Assembly (NCBI RefSeq): GCF_001888165.1
Contig: NZ_CP015455.1
Location: 1,792,001-1,856,000, forward strand
Length of the DNA: 64,000 nucleotides
From: Syntrophotalea acetylenica
Lineage (GTDB): Bacteria > Desulfobacterota > Desulfuromonadia > Desulfuromonadales > Syntrophotaleaceae
Direction of reading: 5' to 3'
The notes beneath the pieces are model-generated. The model was given only the letters and a program-made list of their open reading frames with translations, was not told where the DNA came from and searched no databases. Positions within the stretch are counted from its first letter, which is position 1, and the number at the start of each line of letters is the position of its first letter. Both the position numbers and the translations under genes were made by a program. Below are positions 377-43,757 of the stretch, in pieces.

Positions 377-1294
377 TCAGGAAGCCGTGGCATTGCGCCG
401 TTTCTTCATATCGTCCCAGACCAGAAGAACCGGGCTGGCGACGAAAATAGAGGAATAGGTGCCAATCAGAATCCCGACCAGCATGGCGAAGGCGAAATTG
501 TGAATGACCCCGCCGCCGAACAGAAACAAAGCCAACACGACAAGCAACGTGGTGCCCGAGGTGAGAATCGTGCGGGACAGAGTTTCATTGATGCTGCCAT
601 TGACCGTCTGATCGAAGGACTGCTTCGGATGCCGCCCGATATTTTCGCGAATCCGATCGTACACGATGATGGTGTCGTTCAGTGAATATCCGATGATGGC
701 CAGGAACGCGGCAATGATCGGCAGGTCGATCTCCTTGCCGAACAGGGAGAACGCTCCGAGGGTAATGAGCACATCGTGCGCCAGGGCAATGACAGCGCCG
801 ACGGCGAATTTGAATTCGAAGCGAATGGTAATGTAGATCAGTACCCCGATCATGGCAAACAGGATAGCCATAAGCCCTTTTTTGCGCAGATCCTTGCCCA
901 CCTGTGGTCCGACCATTTCAACGCGCCGGATATCCACCGTTCCTTTACCGTAAGCCTGTTCAAGATGCGCGCCGACCTGCTGCGCCATCCCCTCGAGTTC
1001 GGAACTGGTGTCCTGCAGGCGAAGCATGAACTCCTGCGAGTCCCCCTCGAATTTCTGCACCAACAGACCTTTCAGGTGCATGCCCTTGAGGGCGGATTTG
1101 ATATCGGCGGCCCGGGTGGCTTCGGAGAATTTGACCTGGATCAGGGTACCACCGGCAAAATCAATGCCGTATTCAGGTCCGCCTCTGGCAATCAGGGAAA
1201 CAAGCCCGGCAACCACCAGCAACAGAGAAAAGATCAGCGCCAGCTTGCGCCGGCCGACAAAGTTGATATTGATATCGTGCTTGACGATTTGCAT
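377..1294 (-). CDS. secF: Protein translocase subunit SecF
   Basis: A 305-residue inner-membrane protein matching SecF in length and layout. It has an N-terminal membrane segment (about residues 17-36, after the FVGRRKLALIFS start), the GIDFAGGTLIQVKF motif, a periplasmic domain, then five membrane segments with the family motif near DTIIVYDRIREN. SecF works with SecD in the Sec translocon accessory complex, using the proton gradient to complete export of preproteins. It starts 10 nt after the secD stop, in the same operon. The ATG start has a plausible GGAG-type ribosome site. Confidence 0.97.
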   Translation of the reverse strand: MQIVKHDININFVGRRKLALIFSLLLVVAGLVSLIARGGPEYGIDFAGGTLIQVKFSEATRAADIKSALKGMHLKGLLVQKFEGDSQEFMLRLQDTSSELEGMAQQVGAHLEQAYGKGTVDIRRVEMVGPQVGKDLRKKGLMAILFAMIGVLIYITIRFEFKFAVGAVIALAHDVLITLGAFSLFGKEIDLPIIAAFLAIIGYSLNDTIIVYDRIRENIGRHPKQSFDQTVNGSINETLSRTILTSGTTLLVVLALFLFGGGVIHNFAFAMLVGILIGTYSSIFVASPVLLVWDDMKKRRNATAS

Positions 1295-1304
1295 GCCACC
1301 CTCC

Positions 1305-2906
1305 CTAGATACTCAACCGCTTGACCTGGTAACGTTCCAGGAAAAAGTCGAAAACTACGCGCGAAACAAAGATGGCCGTAAAAAGGGAAGATACAATCCC
1401 CACCGACAGGGTCACGGCGAATCCTTTGACCGGGCCGGTGCCGAACTGGAACAGCACCAAAGCGGCGATCAAGGTTGTAATATTGGCATCCATAATCGTC
1501 AAAAAAGCCTTGCTGTAACCAGCCTCAAGCGCATTTCGGACCGTTTTTCCAAGACGCAGTTCCTCGCGGATACGTTCGTAAATCAGCACGTTGGCGTCGA
1601 CGGCCATTCCCAGAGTCAGCACAATACCGCCGATCCCCGGCAGGGTGAGACTGGCCTTGAAGAGGCTGAGCAGCGCCAGAATGAATATCAGATTGAGCAC
1701 CAGCGCCAGGTTTGCCACCAGTCCGGCGAGATTGTAATAGATTGCCATGGCAACCACCACAGCGACGCTGCCGATAATGACCGACAAAATCCCCTGATTG
1801 ATGGAATCGAGACCGAGGGACGGACCCACTGTACGATTTTCGAGAATGGTAACCGGCGCGGGCAGCGAACCGGCACGCAGAACAATCGCCAGGTCGGTGG
1901 CCTCCTGCTCGTCAAAGGAACCGGAGATCTGTGCACTGCCGCCGGAGATCCTCTCGCGTATGACCGGTGCCGAGTAGACAGTATCGTCCAGCACGATGGC
2001 CATGCGCTGGCCAATGTTGGCGGCGGTAATCTGATCGAAGCGCTTGGCGCCCACGGCGTTGAAATCGATGGAAACGTAGGGTTCGTTAAAGCGGGGGTCG
2101 ATACGCACCTGGGCGTCGGAGACCAGATCGCCAGTCAGGACGGTTTTATCGTATACAACCAAAGGGACCTGGGTAACGGTCCCGGTCTTCCGGTCGACCA
2201 TCCGTTCGTACAGAAGACGGGTTCCGGGAGGCAGCGCCCCGCCGGCAACGGCTTGCGCATCGACATTGTCCGCCACCATCTTGAACTCCAGCAGGGCGGT
2301 CTTGCCCAGCAGGGCAACGGCGCGCTTGGGCTCCTTGACCCCGGGCAACTGCACCAGGATGCGATCACTTCCCTGTCGCTGCAGAACCGTTTCACTGACC
2401 CCGAACTGATCGATACGGTTGCGCAGTGTCTCCAGCGCCTGCTTGACAGCGTTGTCCTTGATAGCCGACACCGCCTCCGTGGAATAGCGGAAGTTTTTTT
2501 CGATATACCCGCCCTGGGTCTCAAGGGTCAGCGGCTCGAGGTCAGCATAAACGCCCTCGCTCATCAGAGCATCGATCTGGCGGCCCGCCTCATCGTCGTA
2601 GACCACAACCGTCAGGCGATCATTGCCGGTCCTCGATACCCGCTTGAAAATAATATCCTTGTCCCTCAGCTCGCCCTCGATCTGGTCAACCAGTCCGTCA
2701 ACCCGGCTTTCCACAGCCTTGTCGACGTCCACCCCGAGCACAAGATGCATGCCTCCCTGCAGGTCGAGACCGAGATGCAGAGGATCAAAACTTTTTTTCA
2801 GCCAGTTAGGGGTACTGTTGGGAAACAGCGTCGGCATTAATACCAACATGGACAGGACGAGGCACAACAGAACGACCCCTCCCCGCAGCTTGATGCTTTT
2901 GGACAT
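1305..2906 (-). CDS. secD: Protein translocase subunit SecD
   Basis: A 533-residue SecD. It shows a signal-anchor segment at the N-terminus, the PLHLGLDLQGGMHLVLGVD motif, a large periplasmic P1 region, then the SecD/SecF membrane domain with GMAVDANVLIYERIREEL near residue 440. It is the partner of SecF in the SecDF-YajC complex. An AAGGAG ribosome site lies 12 nt before the ATG. It lies between yajC and secF on the minus strand. Length and motifs agree with the family, with no sign of truncation. Confidence 0.97.
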   Translation of the reverse strand: MSKSIKLRGGVVLLCLVLSMLVLMPTLFPNSTPNWLKKSFDPLHLGLDLQGGMHLVLGVDVDKAVESRVDGLVDQIEGELRDKDIIFKRVSRTGNDRLTVVVYDDEAGRQIDALMSEGVYADLEPLTLETQGGYIEKNFRYSTEAVSAIKDNAVKQALETLRNRIDQFGVSETVLQRQGSDRILVQLPGVKEPKRAVALLGKTALLEFKMVADNVDAQAVAGGALPPGTRLLYERMVDRKTGTVTQVPLVVYDKTVLTGDLVSDAQVRIDPRFNEPYVSIDFNAVGAKRFDQITAANIGQRMAIVLDDTVYSAPVIRERISGGSAQISGSFDEQEATDLAIVLRAGSLPAPVTILENRTVGPSLGLDSINQGILSVIIGSVAVVVAMAIYYNLAGLVANLALVLNLIFILALLSLFKASLTLPGIGGIVLTLGMAVDANVLIYERIREELRLGKTVRNALEAGYSKAFLTIMDANITTLIAALVLFQFGTGPVKGFAVTLSVGIVSSLFTAIFVSRVVFDFFLERYQVKRLSI

Positions 2907-2915
2907 GGCTGGTCA

Positions 2916-3092
2916 CTACTCCTTTCGCAATCGATGACAGCGCGCCCGCCCGGCCCGGAAACCGGCAGGCGATCCGACGAACAGGACCGCTGCCAACGCG
3001 CAGGCAAGGTGCAGACACCCGGCAACCGCCGGATCCACAAACAAACGGCTATTCAACAACCGCCCCGCGAGGAAAAAGCGGAGCGGAATCAT
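2916..3092 (-). CDS. Possible 58-residue membrane miniprotein between yajC and secD
   Basis: An ATG-initiated frame fills most of the 222-nt gap between yajC and secD. The predicted peptide starts MIPLRFFLAGRLL and has one hydrophobic stretch (about residues 24-45, ending near AAVLFVGSPAGF), then a basic tail. Its stop lies inside the secD ribosome-binding region (AAGGAG-TAG), which would suit translational coupling. The ribosome site is weak (GGGTG, 7 nt upstream) and I recognise no family. It could equally be untranslated spacer. Confidence 0.25.
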   Translation of the reverse strand: MIPLRFFLAGRLLNSRLFVDPAVAGCLHLACALAAVLFVGSPAGFRAGRARCHRLRKE

Positions 3093-16160: not shown

Positions 16161-17702
<1,542 letters not shown>

Positions 17703-17892
17703 GGGACCTCCGTCAGTTGCCGCCCCGGCATCGTCACCGCAAGCAGGGAGCGGTCGTCTTCGTGAATAATTTTCGGACAATTTTACCTATAACGTAAGGA
17801 CGATGAACTATCAGGTCACCCAGGTCCGATTCCACCTGACCACCCCCTTTCCTGTTTCCGCGCATCATGACCAAGCATGCCGCCGGATACAC

Positions 17893-35895: not shown

Positions 35896-36834
35896 TTAAG
35901 TGTGTGTCTCCATACCCTGTCGTATCTTAACCGCGGAAAGCAACAGGGTGTCCTGTTCATTGACATTTCCGGACACCCGATTAAAAAAAACCGGCTCAAA
36001 ACCAGCAGCAGCCAGCCATGTTTCCAGTTCCTGCCGTTCGAAACCGAGCCATTGGTCCGCCATTTGCTCTCTGACCCAATCCTGATCATGACGGCACAGG
36101 TCGGCAATACTGATGCCGCCGCCGGCCGGCAGCACCCGGGCCAGTTCGTAAAACACCTGTTGCGGGTGGGGGGCGTGGTGCAGCACCATGTTAAGCACAA
36201 TCCACTGAGCCGCGCCATCCGCCACCGGCAGATGGCGCATTTCTCCCAGGCGCAACTCGACGCCGTCAAGTCCCGCATCGGCAACTCTTTGGCGGGCCAG
36301 TTCGAGCATCCGCGAAGAATGATCCACCCCGATCACCTTCGCTGCGCGGCCGCGCAGGCCGGCCAGAAGATTGCCGGTTCCGACGCCAACTTCAAGGACA
36401 ACGGACACCCGGGGTATGCAAGCCAGCAGTTCCTTTTCGTAATCCGCCATCGGCAGAAGGTTGCGCACCAGATTGTCCCACTGCCGCGCATGTCTGTCGA
36501 AAAAATCCCGGCTTCTGTGCCGCCTCTTCTCCAGAGTCGCCAGCATACGCTCCTTGTCACCCGGGGCGGTTTCCTTTCGAAGCCTGGCCTCGACCACGGA
36601 ACGAATGGCATGAAAAAACGGGTTATCCCCGTCCAGACGGTAGTATCCCCAGGTGCCTTGCCTTTTCACCGACAGCAACCCGACATCCGTAAGTATTTTA
36701 AGGTGATGCGAAACCCTGGATTGTCCGGTCCCGAGAATGCCGGTCAGTTCCTGAACGGTAAACTCGCCGTGAACGAGAACCGCCAGCAGACGCAAGCGGG
36801 TTGGATCGGCCAAGGCTTTGAATGTCGAAAACAT
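35896..36834 (-). CDS. ArsR-family regulator fused to a SAM-dependent methyltransferase domain (SahR-like)
   Basis: A 312-residue two-domain protein. Residues 1-90 form an ArsR-type winged helix ([35 protein letters not shown]). Residues 130-300 form a class I methyltransferase-like domain ([19 protein letters not shown] loop, then [15 protein letters not shown]). Upstream of ahcY and near metK, the likely role is repression of SAM-cycle genes with SAH or SAM as the signal bound in the second domain. This resembles the SahR regulators reported for Proteobacteria (recalled); the exact match is inference. A perfect palindrome overlaps its own promoter. Confidence 0.85.
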
Positions 36835-36855
36835 ATATCAAGAATCCCTGTCGGA

Positions 36856-36879
36856 CTATATCAATATGTTTTGATATAG
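36856..36879 (-). promoter_or_regulatory. Palindromic operator upstream of the ArsR-methyltransferase/ahcY operon
   Basis: Perfect inverted repeat CTATATCAA-n6-TTGATATAG. An extra half-site-like TTGATATAT ends at the start codon (near 36835-36843). The palindrome overlaps the -10 box of the promoter, so binding of the ArsR protein should block transcription. Confidence 0.75.
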
Positions 36880-36901
36880 CGAATTTCGCACCACAAGGCA
36901 A
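36873..36901 (-). promoter_or_regulatory. Promoter for the ArsR-methyltransferase/ahcY operon
   Basis: TTGCCT (36896-36901) and TATATC (36873-36878), 17 nt apart on the minus strand. The -10 box lies inside the palindromic operator. Confidence 0.6.
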
Positions 36902-36904
36902 GAA

Positions 36905-36935
36905 AAAAGGCGGCCCCCCGAAGGGAACCGCCCCA
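36905..36935 (-). terminator. Rho-independent terminator after the lipoprotein gene
   Basis: Stem GGCGG-CCC with TTCG loop and GGG-CCGCC, then TTTTTTC on the minus strand, 20 nt after the lipoprotein stop. Confidence 0.85.
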
Positions 36936-39177: not shown

Positions 39178-40953
39178 TCATTCGCCGCCAACTGCGGTCG
39201 GGTGGCTGAAAAGCGAGGGGAACCGTTTGTTCATTTCTCCTGCGAGACGACGGGCTGCCTCGGGAGCCGACCCCAGTTCGAACAGTTCTTCGACAAGCCT
39301 CTCGGCCTCGGGTCGGTGAACCTGACGTATGATCCGCTTGACCTGGGAGATATAGGGGGCATTCATGGACCATTCATCAAAACCGAGACCGAGCAAAACC
39401 AGCGCATAGAGGGGGTCGCCGGCCATTTCGCCACAGATACCGACCATGACGCCTGCCTGTTTTGCCGCATCACAGATCATCCGCAGAGTCCGCAAAATGG
39501 CTGGATGCAGGGGTTCGAAAAGATAGGCCACATGTTCGTTGCCGCGATCCACGGCCAGACAGTACTGAATCAGATCGTTGGTTCCCACGGAAAGAAAATC
39601 GACTTCACGAGCCAGCAATTCGGTGACCAGGGCCGCTGCGGGGGTCTCGATCATGATGCCGATCTCGATGTCAGGGTCGAAAGCATGCCCTTCCGCGACC
39701 AACTCCTGCCTGATTTCCTGAAGCAGGCACTTGCAGCTTTTTATCTCCGCCACGCCGGTAATCATGGGGAACAGGATGCGCGCATTGCCAAACGCGGAAG
39801 CCCTGAGGATGGCCCGCAACTGGACCTTGAACAGATTCTTTTCTTTCAGGGAAAAGCGGATCGCGCGCAACCCCATGGCCGGATTCGCTTCGTCGGAAAG
39901 ATCGATGCCGGAAACCAGTTTGTCGCCTCCGACATCCAGGGTGCGAATGGTCACCGGGTGCGGGGCCATGCTTTCGATGATCTGTCGGTAAGCGCTCAGT
40001 TGTTCTTCTTCGGATGGCACATGATTGCGCTTCATGTAAAGAAATTCGGTACGGAACAACCCCACACCCTGCGCCCCTTCGCGCAGGGCAATCGGCACCT
40101 CCTCCGCAATTTCGATATTGCTGCGCAGCACCACTCGGTGACCGTCCAGGGTAACGGCTTCAAGTCCCCGGAAATAAGTCAGTTCCTCGGCCTGGTATTC
40201 ATAAAACCGCTTCTTTTCAAGGTACTCACGGAAGGTGTCATGGGAGGGGTTGAGCACCACCGTTCCGGTGCTGCCGTCAATAATGACAGGCATGCCCTCC
40301 CGCACGCGGGAAGTGACATTTTCGAGTCCGACCACCGCGGGGATTCCAAGGGAACGGGCGAGAATCGTCGTATGGGAGGTTCTGCCCCCCAGGTCCGTGA
40401 CAAAACCGATAATCCGCGCCTTGTCCATCTGCATCGTGTCGGTGGGCGAAATATCGTGGGCCACGATAACGGATTTACGCTCGATGTCGGCCAGGGATTG
40501 CTGAGAAACGCCTACCAGATTGCGAAGAACGCGCTCCCCCACCGAATCGATGTCGGAGCGGCGTTCCCGGAGGTATTCGTCGTCAATGGTATCGAAAACG
40601 GCGCGAAACTTCCCAAGAACCCTCAGCAGGGCGCCCTCGGCATTGATCCGGTTCCTGCGGATAACAGCGATGGTTTCATCGACCAGCATGGGATCCTTCA
40701 GGATCATCAGGTGCGTGTCGATGATATGCAGATGCTCGGCAATATGGGGATCGGCAACACGATTTTTGACGTCCTCCAGTTCTTGCCGGGAACGCTGCAG
40801 AGCTTTTTCGAACAATCGGATTTCAGCATCGAGTTCGCCGGGTTCGACCGCCCTCTCAACAGCCGACATGCGCCTGCGATCCACCACATAGGCGGAGCCG
40901 ATGGCGATGCCCGGTGAAGCGCCGATGCCTACAAGAAAAACGTCCTGCATCAT
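39178..40953 (-). CDS. ptsI: Phosphoenolpyruvate-protein phosphotransferase (PTS enzyme I)
   Basis: Moves phosphate from PEP to HPr. The 591-residue product has the N-terminal HPr-binding domain, the phospho-histidine motif GGRTSHTTILARSLGIPAVVG near residue 195, the PEP-binding barrel (GLFRTEFLYM) and the catalytic cysteine in VGICGEMAGDP. The ATG at 40953 (MMQDVFLVG) has GGGGAG seven bases upstream. It starts one base after the ptsH stop, last gene of the PTS cluster. Confidence 0.97.
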   Translation of the reverse strand: MMQDVFLVGIGASPGIAIGSAYVVDRRRMSAVERAVEPGELDAEIRLFEKALQRSRQELEDVKNRVADPHIAEHLHIIDTHLMILKDPMLVDETIAVIRRNRINAEGALLRVLGKFRAVFDTIDDEYLRERRSDIDSVGERVLRNLVGVSQQSLADIERKSVIVAHDISPTDTMQMDKARIIGFVTDLGGRTSHTTILARSLGIPAVVGLENVTSRVREGMPVIIDGSTGTVVLNPSHDTFREYLEKKRFYEYQAEELTYFRGLEAVTLDGHRVVLRSNIEIAEEVPIALREGAQGVGLFRTEFLYMKRNHVPSEEEQLSAYRQIIESMAPHPVTIRTLDVGGDKLVSGIDLSDEANPAMGLRAIRFSLKEKNLFKVQLRAILRASAFGNARILFPMITGVAEIKSCKCLLQEIRQELVAEGHAFDPDIEIGIMIETPAAALVTELLAREVDFLSVGTNDLIQYCLAVDRGNEHVAYLFEPLHPAILRTLRMICDAAKQAGVMVGICGEMAGDPLYALVLLGLGFDEWSMNAPYISQVKRIIRQVHRPEAERLVEELFELGSAPEAARRLAGEMNKRFPSLFSHPTAVGGE

Positions 40954-40954
40954 C

Positions 40955-41221
40955 TCACTGCTCCCCAAACCCATCCTGGATCAATTGCCCGAGGGATTCC
41001 ATGGCCTGGCAGGCATCCGGGCCGGAGGTCGTAACCTCGATATGCGTCCCCTGGGCCGCCGCAAGCATCAATATCCCCATAATACTTTTACCGCTGACTT
41101 CCTCACCATCCTTGGAGACCGTGACCTCGGCCTCGAACCTGGCGGCTGTCTTCACGAACAGGGCCGCCGCCCTGGCATGCAATCCCAGCTTATTGACAAT
41201 AATAAAAGACTGTTTTTCCAT
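40955..41221 (-). CDS. ptsH: Phosphocarrier protein HPr
   Basis: An 88-residue HPr. The phosphorylated histidine is in NKLGLHARAAALFVKTAARF (His at residue 15) and the regulatory serine in EVSGKSIMGILML (Ser near residue 46). It starts by one-base overlap with the IID stop (TGATG). The frame upstream in the same phase is shadow. The serine motif matches the HprK target site although no hprK gene is seen near ptsN and rapZ. Confidence 0.95.
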   Translation of the reverse strand: MEKQSFIIVNKLGLHARAAALFVKTAARFEAEVTVSKDGEEVSGKSIMGILMLAAAQGTHIEVTTSGPDACQAMESLGQLIQDGFGEQ

Positions 41222-41991
41222 CAAAATCCCACACTGGCGCATACATGTGATCCAATCCAGACCAACAACACCACACCGGTCAGCATCGCAAGCGAGGATA
41301 ATCCGCGCCGGACCAGCCACCCGACCATAACCATAACAGGTACCACAAGCCAGCCCCAGTGGCCGGGTTGCCGGACAGATTCCAGTCCAGAAAAGGTTAT
41401 CCAGGCCGACACCCCTCCCAGAACCATGACCAGAATGGCGCGCAAACGGTAAGCAAGATCCGACAGACCCCATCGATGCAGCTTGTCGACAATTCTGTAA
41501 CCTCTCCGGTATCCCTGCCAGAAACCGTAAATCCGCAAACCGCAGGATGGCGCATTGTACAAAAGCAAAAAAACCGCGACACTCCACCAGAAACCGGCAA
41601 GTGCCAACCCGACGGCAATGCTGGCCGCCAAAGGCCGCAGTGTTCCCCAGAAAAAACTGTCTCCCATGGCGGCGCAGGGGCCAGCCAGAACGGACTTGAA
41701 CTCCGCCACCTCCATCTCGGGTGCCTGTCCCTGGCTTATCCGTTCTTCGAGGTGCAGACTGGCGCCAAGTACCGGCAAAGCTAACACCGGATGGGTATTG
41801 AAATAATCAAGATGACGCCGGCAAACCCGCTGCAGGTCCGCACCTTGATAAAGGACGCGCAAGCCGGGAAACAGGGCGAAAAGAAACCCCAGGTTCTGCA
41901 TGCGCCCGAAATTCCAACTGGCTTGCAAAAACCAGCCGCGCAACGCAACCCGCCAGAGGATCCATCCGGTAATCTTCCGCGACAGGGCCAT
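41221..41991 (-). CDS. PTS mannose/sorbose-family enzyme IID
   Basis: A 256-residue membrane protein of the EIID family: WFLQASWNFGRMQNLGFLFAL near the start, then FNTHPVLALPVLGASLHLEER, GPCAAMGDSFFWGTLRPLAA and several C-terminal membrane segments. IID and IIC together form the sugar channel of mannose-type PTS. It lies in the order IIA, IIB, IIC, IID, ptsH, ptsI, almost without gaps. The sugar is unknown. Confidence 0.9.
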   Translation of the reverse strand: MALSRKITGWILWRVALRGWFLQASWNFGRMQNLGFLFALFPGLRVLYQGADLQRVCRRHLDYFNTHPVLALPVLGASLHLEERISQGQAPEMEVAEFKSVLAGPCAAMGDSFFWGTLRPLAASIAVGLALAGFWWSVAVFLLLYNAPSCGLRIYGFWQGYRRGYRIVDKLHRWGLSDLAYRLRAILVMVLGGVSAWITFSGLESVRQPGHWGWLVVPVMVMVGWLVRRGLSSLAMLTGVVLLVWIGSHVCASVGF

Positions 41992-41994
41992 GGC

Positions 41995-42692
41995 TTATCC
42001 CGAAACCAGCAGCAGACTGTAAACGACCATAAAGCTCAAAACGTAAAAGCACGCGGATTTGCGGAAGTTCACGGTGCCGAGACAAGCCGCGATGCCGGCC
42101 AGCGGCACGGCCATGCGTAACCACGGGGAGATGTCTGTCGGCCCGGAGGCAAGAACAGGTGTAAAAACCCTGATCCCTACAAAACCGCCAAGAAGAACCA
42201 CCCCCAATGTCAAAAGCGATGCCATTCCGAAATGCAGCGCGCCCTGAAGATGCAGCCAGTTCACCACCCCATAGCGCTGCTCATCGAGAGCCTGCTGGGC
42301 ACGCATCCACAGACATTCATTCCGACGCCGGGCAAGACGATCAAAAAAACCGCCGATCCTGCCGAAGGGCAATGCTGCCAGCAAGCAGAGGATGGAAAAC
42401 GCCGTTGCGGGGACCGGCGGTCCCGGATACTGGGTTATGGCAAGAAAGGTACAGCCGATGGCGACCTGGGTATCGTCGGGGGGATCGAGGCGCCAACAGG
42501 GATCCGTCCCAACCACAACAATTCGAGAAAAGCGCCGATTTCCAATCCGATGGCCGCATTACCAAGCAGCCATCCAGCCAGTGGCGCCGCCACGATTGGC
42601 CGGGAAATCATCAGCTGCAATACCGCAGTCCGATCCAGGCCGGCAAGCAGGGAAACGGCGGCAGCTGTGCAGAGGGAAGATCCGATTGTCAT
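41995..42692 (-). CDS. PTS mannose/sorbose-family enzyme IIC, frame broken by one missing base
   Basis: The EII-Sor family channel subunit. The first frame (from the ATG at 42692, with AGGCAGGT upstream) gives membrane segments and LEIGAFLELLWLGRIPVGAS, then drifts at IPPTIPR and stops at 42435. The other frame continues PPDDTQVAIGCTFLAITQYP and four more hydrophobic segments to 41995. The break is at a run of six C on the minus strand (42478-42483); seven would join the two into a 232-residue IIC with the joint IPPDDTQ, as in relatives. It follows IIB by seven bases. Confidence 0.85.
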
Positions 42693-42699
42693 ACCTGCC

Positions 42700-43182
42700 T
42701 TATTTCAGCTTGATTGCGTTGCGCCAGCTTCGTTTGCGGTCCGAGGGAACGCACTGCAAGTCGATCTTTACGCCGCAGGATTCGAGCTCGGAAAGGTTTG
42801 CAATATCTTCGGGATCCAGGGTAACGGTGCATCCCAACTGAAACGCACCTTCGGGCCGATGAAGATTGCCGAGATTGAGTTTCGAAAAATGCAGGCCCAG
42901 CCGATAGGCCCGCAGGGCATCTGCCGGGCTGGCGAAAAGAACCAGGACCCGCAGTGTCTCGTTATCCCGGGACGCGACAAATTTTGCCGATTCTTCGACA
43001 GATTCGATCAATACCTGGATGCCGCGCGGCACGGAAGCGGTCATGAGTCGCTTGCGGATATCTTCGGCGGCCACTTCGTTATTGGCGACAACGATGCAAT
43101 TGGCACGAGTGTCGGGTATCCAGGCTTCAAGAACCTGACCGTGGATCAGTCGATTGTCGATACGTGCCAGTACCAAGCTCAT
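42700..43182 (-). CDS. PTS mannose/sorbose-family enzyme IIB
   Basis: A 160-residue cytoplasmic IIB. It starts MSLVLARIDNRLIHGQVLEA, in which His-15 is the phosphorylated residue, and continues with the family pattern (CIVVANNEVAAED, LGNLHRPEGAFQLGCTVTLD). The ATG at 43182 has GGATGG upstream. The longer frame back to 43344 has no match. It hands phosphate from IIA to the sugar at the IIC-IID channel. Confidence 0.92.
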   Translation of the reverse strand: MSLVLARIDNRLIHGQVLEAWIPDTRANCIVVANNEVAAEDIRKRLMTASVPRGIQVLIESVEESAKFVASRDNETLRVLVLFASPADALRAYRLGLHFSKLNLGNLHRPEGAFQLGCTVTLDPEDIANLSELESCGVKIDLQCVPSDRKRSWRNAIKLK

Positions 43183-43349
43183 AAACAAACCATCCGCCAA
43201 GGCTATCTGGTTTTCATCCGGAAACGACCCTTTTCCACCGTGGCGGCGTCCATCCGCAGGCTTGCTTGCGCGGCGTACCGATGTACGCCTTCGCGCAACC
43301 CCTTGATTTCCTGGCCGCAACGAAAAAAGGCTCGTTTCCCACATGGATA

Positions 43350-43757
43350 CTATCTGGCAAGAATATCGCTTGCCAGTAAAATACTCTGCTGCCCGCAGTC
43401 CCTCAAGAGCACCGCAAGTTCCCCCAGGGAACGACCAGGACGCTCCTGGGAAGCTCTGAGAAGCATGGGGAGGTTCACGCCACTGAGCACATCGACAACC
43501 CCCTGCTCGAGAAACGAAAAACCGATGTTGGAAGGCGTTCCGCCGAACATATCCGTTAACACCAGCACCCCGTCACCATCCCGTCCCGCCTCTTCGATGG
43601 CCCGCTGAAAACGTTTGCGAATCTCGTCGGGGCCTTCACCGCGCCCGATATGCACCACCGCGACACGGGACAAGGGTCCGAGAATCATTTCAGCCGTCCT
43701 GACAAGTTCACCCGCCAGGCCGCTATGTGTCGCCAGGACCAGACCTACCACGGTCAC
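43350..43757 (-). CDS. PTS mannose/fructose-family enzyme IIA
   Basis: A 135-residue EIIA-Man type domain. It shows VVGLVLATHSGLAGELVRTA, with His-10 as the phosphorylation site, and VLVLTDMFGGTPSNIGF. It starts directly after rapZ (43758). In Desulfuromonadales such a IIA is often found behind rapZ as part of the regulatory PTS (recalled), but here IIB, IIC and IID follow. Confidence 0.93.
   Translation of the reverse strand: MTVVGLVLATHSGLAGELVRTAEMILGPLSRVAVVHIGRGEGPDEIRKRFQRAIEEAGRDGDGVLVLTDMFGGTPSNIGFSFLEQGVVDVLSGVNLPMLLRASQERPGRSLGELAVLLRDCGQQSILLASDILAR

Follow-up and report, generated by a model that had tools for sequence, protein, structure and literature searches.

A SahR-type regulator of ahcY in Syntrophotalea acetylenica, with its predicted operator over the promoter and a probable second operator at the start codon

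SahR joins an ArsR-type helix-turn-helix domain to a methyltransferase fold that binds SAM or SAH, and its original description is reportedly that of Novichkov et al. 2014. It has been described as controlling ahcY in response to SAH, with a 20-bp palindrome as its motif, and has been predicted in deltaproteobacteria (PMC4239095, Leyn et al. 2014). SahR regulons are reported from alpha-, delta- and some gammaproteobacteria, with core targets that include sahR, ahcY, metH, metF and metK (PMC4239095). This core regulon is a tendency over 70% of genomes, and the row for Desulfuromonadales gives 9 genomes, 6 of them with a regulon, the 6 being read here as SahR in a table of ambiguous layout (PMC4239095). 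The pattern ATC-10nt-GAT is common to the SahR motif and that of the relative SamR (PMC4239095). In Desulfovibrio, the binding of SahR to SAM-cycle gene operators depends on SAH, as cited in PMC8877191, and in Ensifer aridi the expression of sahR was highest in the sahR deletion strain (PMC8877191). SahR, assigned to the ArsR family, is also listed in 62 genomes (PMC5343134).

We analysed a 64-kb stretch of the S. acetylenica genome (the window), in which two genes form the locus of interest:

35896..36834, minus strand: sahR, ArsR-type winged helix and class I methyltransferase fold, 312 aa
34421..35848, minus strand: ahcY, adenosylhomocysteinase (TIGR00936, 632.5 bits, cut-off 497.6)

The gap from sahR to ahcY is 47 bp, with ahcY downstream and above its family cut-off, which agrees with the initial annotation of a regulator gene directly before ahcY. 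In a profile search, the SahR protein matched HTH_5 and HTH_20 as well as several methyltransferase families, confirming the ArsR DNA-binding domain joined to a SAM-binding fold that had been read from the sequence. The winged-helix DNA-binding domain covers residues 4-70, and the predicted model (mean pLDDT 86.0, pTM 0.81, 13 sequences) shows, besides the winged helix and the methyltransferase fold, a long helix at 91-126. Every match listed in a fold search was a methyltransferase; because the longest alignments had an rmsd of about 14-20 Å, the search says only class I for the C-terminal fold. A sequence search of solved structures gave no chain spanning both domains among the matches listed. 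Across 57 aligned SahR proteins, the SAM-pocket residues G150, G152, G154 and D171 were invariant, as were H219, H220, D260 and W262. On sequence grounds, the window regulator is SahR, matched to the published description by domain order, ahcY linkage, motif and promoter overlap; the system is already known and named, which the initial annotation had missed.

The domain composition also bears on two other readings of the protein. A metal- or arsenite-sensing ArsR regulator is suggested by the HTH, which passes the ArsR/SmtB subfamily model NF033788 (86.2 bits, cut-off 55). Many ArsR/SmtB metal sensors, although not all, typically have a conserved cysteine metal site. The window protein has two cysteines (139 and 247), and no conserved cysteine column was found in the 57 SahR proteins, where cysteine reached at least 30% only at column 143 (18 proteins). 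Together with ahcY as the neighbour at 56 of 58 loci, this argues so strongly against a metal sensor that we give that reading almost no weight. The second reading is an active methyltransferase that acts on a substrate and whose DNA-binding part controls only its own expression; it would suit the complete class I fold with its invariant pocket and H219, H220, D260 and W262, as well as the fold matches listed, all of which are methyltransferases. We regard it as very improbable, as the gene is in a fixed pairing with ahcY and the operator, orthologues have been published as regulators (PMC4239095, PMC8877191), and the conserved residues could equally serve ligand sensing.

The regulatory region upstream of sahR contains the following features, the promoter elements and the ribosome-binding site being read from their letters:

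36907..36934, minus strand: terminator-like hairpin (12 pairs) and T run, separating the upstream gene from the sahR promoter
36896..36901, minus strand: -35-like TTGCCT of the sahR-ahcY promoter; TTGAC or TTGCC at the same place in many relatives
36873..36878, minus strand: -10-like TATATC, inside O1; TAnATC there in relatives
36856..36879, no strand (palindrome): O1, putative main SahR operator, perfect palindrome CTATATCAA-n6-TTGATATAG, over the -10
36845..36849, minus strand: AGGGA, likely Shine-Dalgarno, in the centre and left half of O2
36835..36854, minus strand: O2, degenerate second palindrome, 23 bp from O1; right half TTGATAT strong, left half weak

Along the minus strand, the order is hairpin, TTGCCT, 17 bp, TATATC within the palindrome, AGGGA, TTGATAT and the ATG at 36834. 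The full letters of O1 are CTATATCAATATGTTTTGATATAG, with the spacer TATGTT between CTATATCAA and TTGATATAG, and its 20-bp core, ATATCAA-n6-TTGATAT, occupies 36858-36877. The palindrome covering the -10 box was thus found as first described, at 36856-36879 with TATATC inside. TTGCCT and TATATC, 17 bp apart, match the sigma-70 consensus at 8 of 12 positions, and the promoter is absent from the promoter scan list, for which the cut-off was 9; we take the pair as the promoter because many relatives have TTGAC at the same place. When promoters were aligned on O1, many had TAnATC 17 bp downstream of TTGAC or TTGCC, frequently with a TG in front of TAnATC, which indicates that the -10 covered by O1 belongs to a conserved promoter. 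Terminator-like sites numbered 9 in the region versus 6.1±2.2 expected, the hairpin at 36907-36934 being the strongest. A second terminator-like stem with a T run (35990-36006, minus strand) lies inside the 3' end of sahR; given these counts it is possibly a chance occurrence, and if real it would lower ahcY relative to sahR.

O1 was searched for in the window and in the whole genome. Within the 64 kb, O1 was the sole match at up to 3 mismatches (0.01 expected from dinucleotide shuffles). A genome search for the palindrome, suggested in the initial annotation and run here with the 20-bp core on the 3.2-Mb genome, returned a single exact match and three places with 2 mismatches; the backwards-read control pattern gave 1. 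A matrix was built from sahR operators without L103, L108, L109, L020, L032 (near copies) and L117 (weakest). On this matrix O1 scored 26.9 and the three 2-mismatch places -0.2, -4.0 and 9.1. A wider regulon through these three places was rejected on account of their low scores and their position inside open frames (stop to stop).

Conservation was then assessed across the order. SahR was encoded in 52 of 136 genomes, the window genome included, and ahcY in 127 of 136, including all 52 with SahR (lists compared by hand). The 52 genomes and 6 named contigs provided 58 sahR loci, after seven duplicate loci and L048-L051, which align with the protein over part of its length (26-37% identity), had been left out. 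The results showed ahcY after sahR in the same direction at 56 of the 58 loci, the remaining two stopping at contig ends, and O1 at the same promoter position before sahR in 55 of 58 (scores 19.7-37.7). The three loci without a clear O1 all belong to family f12 (best scores 9.6-10.8). These loci, L103 (G098), L108 (G097) and L109 (G099), have SahR and ahcY, and their promoters contain other AT-rich repeats, for example TTGATCAAT; both the operator and the helix that reads the DNA may have changed in them. At L020 (G121), sahR and ahcY form one open frame (592-3003, 804 aa) with no stop between them, and a ribosome-binding-like stretch and an ATG are still present before ahcY; since this is a metagenome assembly, the fused frame may be a stop loss or an error.

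We also searched the other published SahR targets. In six genomes of the genus, the metK, metH, metF and fused S-methyltransferase/MTHFR loci contained no site scoring 10 or more, the sahR operator excepted; two metF loci were truncated where their contigs stop, and the window genome has a third, partial metH match, which was left out. In the window, metK sits beyond a 269-aa frame from sahR, and the initial statement that its promoter lacks the site was borne out, with no SahR site at metK in this strain. A promoter-like site at 39163-39135 matches 10 of 12 consensus positions, where the region held 3 such sites versus 3.1 expected, and no riboswitch was found near metK at the gathering threshold. 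Beyond metK, on the minus strand (39178-43757), lie frames that by eye resemble phosphotransferase-system parts (enzyme I, HPr and mannose-type components). The only Rfam match in the window was a T-box leader (RF00230, 17909-18125, minus strand, 118.9 bits), just before a frame (16161-17780) that by eye is 2-isopropylmalate synthase-like.

The wider scan of the order covered 30 metK, 30 metH and 30 metF loci from the 41 other SahR genomes searched. Among the 36 metK loci scanned (6 from the genus and 30 others), six held a strong site; all six proved by identical sequence to be the sahR operator of the same genome, and metK was rejected as a target. The sole clear further target in the order was found in G073, with a strong site (36.8) just upstream of metF-metH (L217, around 2378), and its recovery demonstrates that the scan can detect such sites. 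G073 is also the only one of the 41 searched genomes in which a metH match exceeds the full-length family cut-off. In G065, a weak candidate site close to the beginning of a split metH gene (L184) scored 15.3, below the sahR operators (at least 19.7). Places outside sahR with at most 1 mismatch numbered 11 in the 52 SahR genomes versus 40 in the 84 others (hand count), suggesting that most of them are chance; one further 1-mismatch place was seen in the genus (G117, L091, score 8.6). The regulon therefore looks minimal in the genus, and the early proposal that it is limited to the ahcY operon holds as far as tested, that is, for metK, metH and metF in the genus and for the 2-mismatch genome search. 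Because the published core regulon is a tendency and not a requirement, a regulator lacking sites at metK, metH and metF may still be SahR. With its regulon apparently reduced to a single operon, this lineage can serve as a simple model for a SAH sensor.

These targets also bear on the ligand. The regulator might sense SAM or the SAM/SAH ratio instead of SAH, as suggested for SamR, the effector of which is described as undetermined (PMC4239095); the fold generally binds either ligand, and the SAM pocket is intact. We consider this improbable, however, as the constant target is the SAH-removing ahcY and the SAM-making metK carries no site, while SamR regulons are said to hold metK and no other SAM-cycle gene (PMC4239095).

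The initial annotation had further reported an extra half-site ending at the start codon. This half-site is real: ATATCAA at 36835-36841 abuts the sahR ATG (36834-36832) and is the right half of O2, TTGATAT at 36841-36835. It is not isolated, however, but belongs to a conserved second palindrome. In the window strain O2 is weak; the matrix match that overlaps it, at 36834, scores 2.2. With the f12 loci L103, L108 and L109 excluded from the counts (best site 9.6-10.8), 4 or 5 letters of TTGAT were found 21-24 bp from the O1 right half in 42 of 55 promoters (27 perfect; 22 of 28 genera) and were missing at the other 13 under this 4-of-5 rule. Other 4-bp windows had TTGAT half-sites in 1-9 promoters, with two exceptions, the -35 box with 34 and the window next to it with 17. 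In the 42 promoters, the distance from O1 to the half-site was 23 bp in 34, 22 bp in 5 and 24 bp in 3, and that from the half-site to the assumed start codon was 0-7 nt, exactly 2 nt in 22. The left half was enriched at O1's own 6-bp spacing (88 versus 68.2±6.2; highest of 300 shuffles, 83), and no enrichment was found at other spacings in these promoters. A free scan of downstream shifts placed the best secondary palindrome at +23, with a mean of 5.15 of 10 core matches versus 2.84±0.19, and none of 1000 shuffles reached 5.15 at any shift. Reducing the set to a single promoter for each genus or named contig (34 promoters) gave a mean of 5.41 at +23, again reached by none of 1000 shuffles.

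We also searched 394 genomes of the phylum for more distant SahR genes and obtained SahR-like matches in 34 at E <= 1e-30. Thirty loci were taken, with the partial matches G169 and G181 left out, and L256, L265 and L267, which had no site, were excluded from the spacing tests. Each locus was anchored on its best site, and on the most 3' one when several tied, a choice that favours an upstream partner and does not fix its distance. In five loci from another order of the same class, the highest shift was +37 (6.20), followed by +23 (6.00). In genus g119 of family f60 (11 mutually related loci), a partner stood at -22 (7.55 versus 2.68±0.42; 0 of 1000 shuffles), and 22 bp was the best pair spacing in 10 of 12 loci, with at least 16 of 20 matches. 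Eight loci of other families likewise had a partner at -22 (5.50 versus 3.13±0.49; 0 of 1000 shuffles). Three f60 loci of other genera gave no partner signal; family f60 overall (14 loci) reached 6.71 versus 2.63±0.37, a signal that comes from one genus.

For O2 only, another reading is that the half-site is conserved for a role in translation initiation or at the RNA level, with no binding by SahR. Such a role is possible because 22 of the 42 half-sites end exactly 2 nt before the assumed start codon; AGGGA lies inside O2, and 21 of 56 operator-free ahcY starts have 4 or 5 letters of TTGAT within 14 positions (2 perfect). Against it, the half-site keeps a more constant distance from O1 (23 bp in 34 of 42) than from the start codon (0-7 nt), the left half is enriched at the 6-bp spacing only, and in other lineages of the phylum the main site has its partner on the upstream side, presumably outside the transcript. 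We regard a translational role as a serious contender for O2, but on balance doubtful.

For the locus as a whole, we consider it very probable that SahR is a SAH-sensing ArsR-type autorepressor of sahR-ahcY, with O1 as its operator and the weaker O2 probably helping. The sites, their conservation and spacing, the domains and the ahcY linkage are observed, while DNA binding and the SAH effect are drawn from orthologues. Autorepression relieved by SAH is the published SahR model (PMC4239095, PMC8877191) and is supported by that precedent; repression in the window strain, binding to O2, cooperativity and steepness are what we infer. When SAH is low, a SahR dimer on O1 would cover the -10 and shut the sahR-ahcY promoter, and a second dimer would probably assist from O2, the weaker site, which lies two helical turns from O1 at the ribosome-binding site and the start codon. 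When SAH rises, it would bind the methyltransferase-fold sensor and SahR would leave the DNA; AhcY would then be made, SAH hydrolysed and the switch reset. Against this explanation, three f12 loci of 58 are without a clear O1, the published core targets metH, metF and metK carry no site in the genus, and O2 is weak in the window strain and, by the 4-of-5 rule, missing at 13 of 55 promoters.

Adjacent binding of two SahR dimers would account for the conserved 22-23 bp operator pair, and the conserved spacing of O1 and O2 predicts cooperative binding. We tentatively propose, as a general layout whose chances fall slightly short of even, a main operator near -10/+1 whose partner lies 23 bp further downstream, over the ribosome-binding site, in this lineage and 22 bp to the upstream side, towards -35, in other lineages of the phylum, on which touching dimers would give steep release and operator number would order induction. 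If this is true, contact between two dimers on the same face of the DNA would make the release of ahcY by SAH steep, single-site targets such as metF-metH in G073 would respond gradedly, and the number of operators would set the order of induction. Since SAH inhibits methyltransferases, the sharpness of its removal matters. An observation made blind from sequence is thereby tied to a known regulator, with a refinement, O2, that is readily testable.

Compared with known systems, the window SahR shares its winged-helix DNA-binding domain with ArsR/SmtB metal sensors such as SmtB and CzrA and, unlike them, has a fused methyltransferase fold and no conserved cysteines. SamR of Xanthomonadales is a distant homologue with about 30% identity to SahR and shares ATC-10nt-GAT; it differs in its 24-bp palindrome and in its targets, which are metH, metB, metE, metF, metK, metX2 and hom and not ahcY (PMC4239095). 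An identity with SamR was rejected, the window operator standing at sahR-ahcY and none at metK, metH or metF. Unlike the published SahR core regulon, the genus has no site before metK, metH and metF. The second operator, conserved here 22-23 bp away, found no counterpart in the parts of the published SahR descriptions that were compared, the original SahR paper lying outside this comparison, and the two-operator layout may be the only new part of the system. The locus shares with published SahR an ArsR-family regulator adjoining ahcY and a 20-bp ATC-10nt-GAT palindrome, and autoregulation with SAH as effector is the published model.
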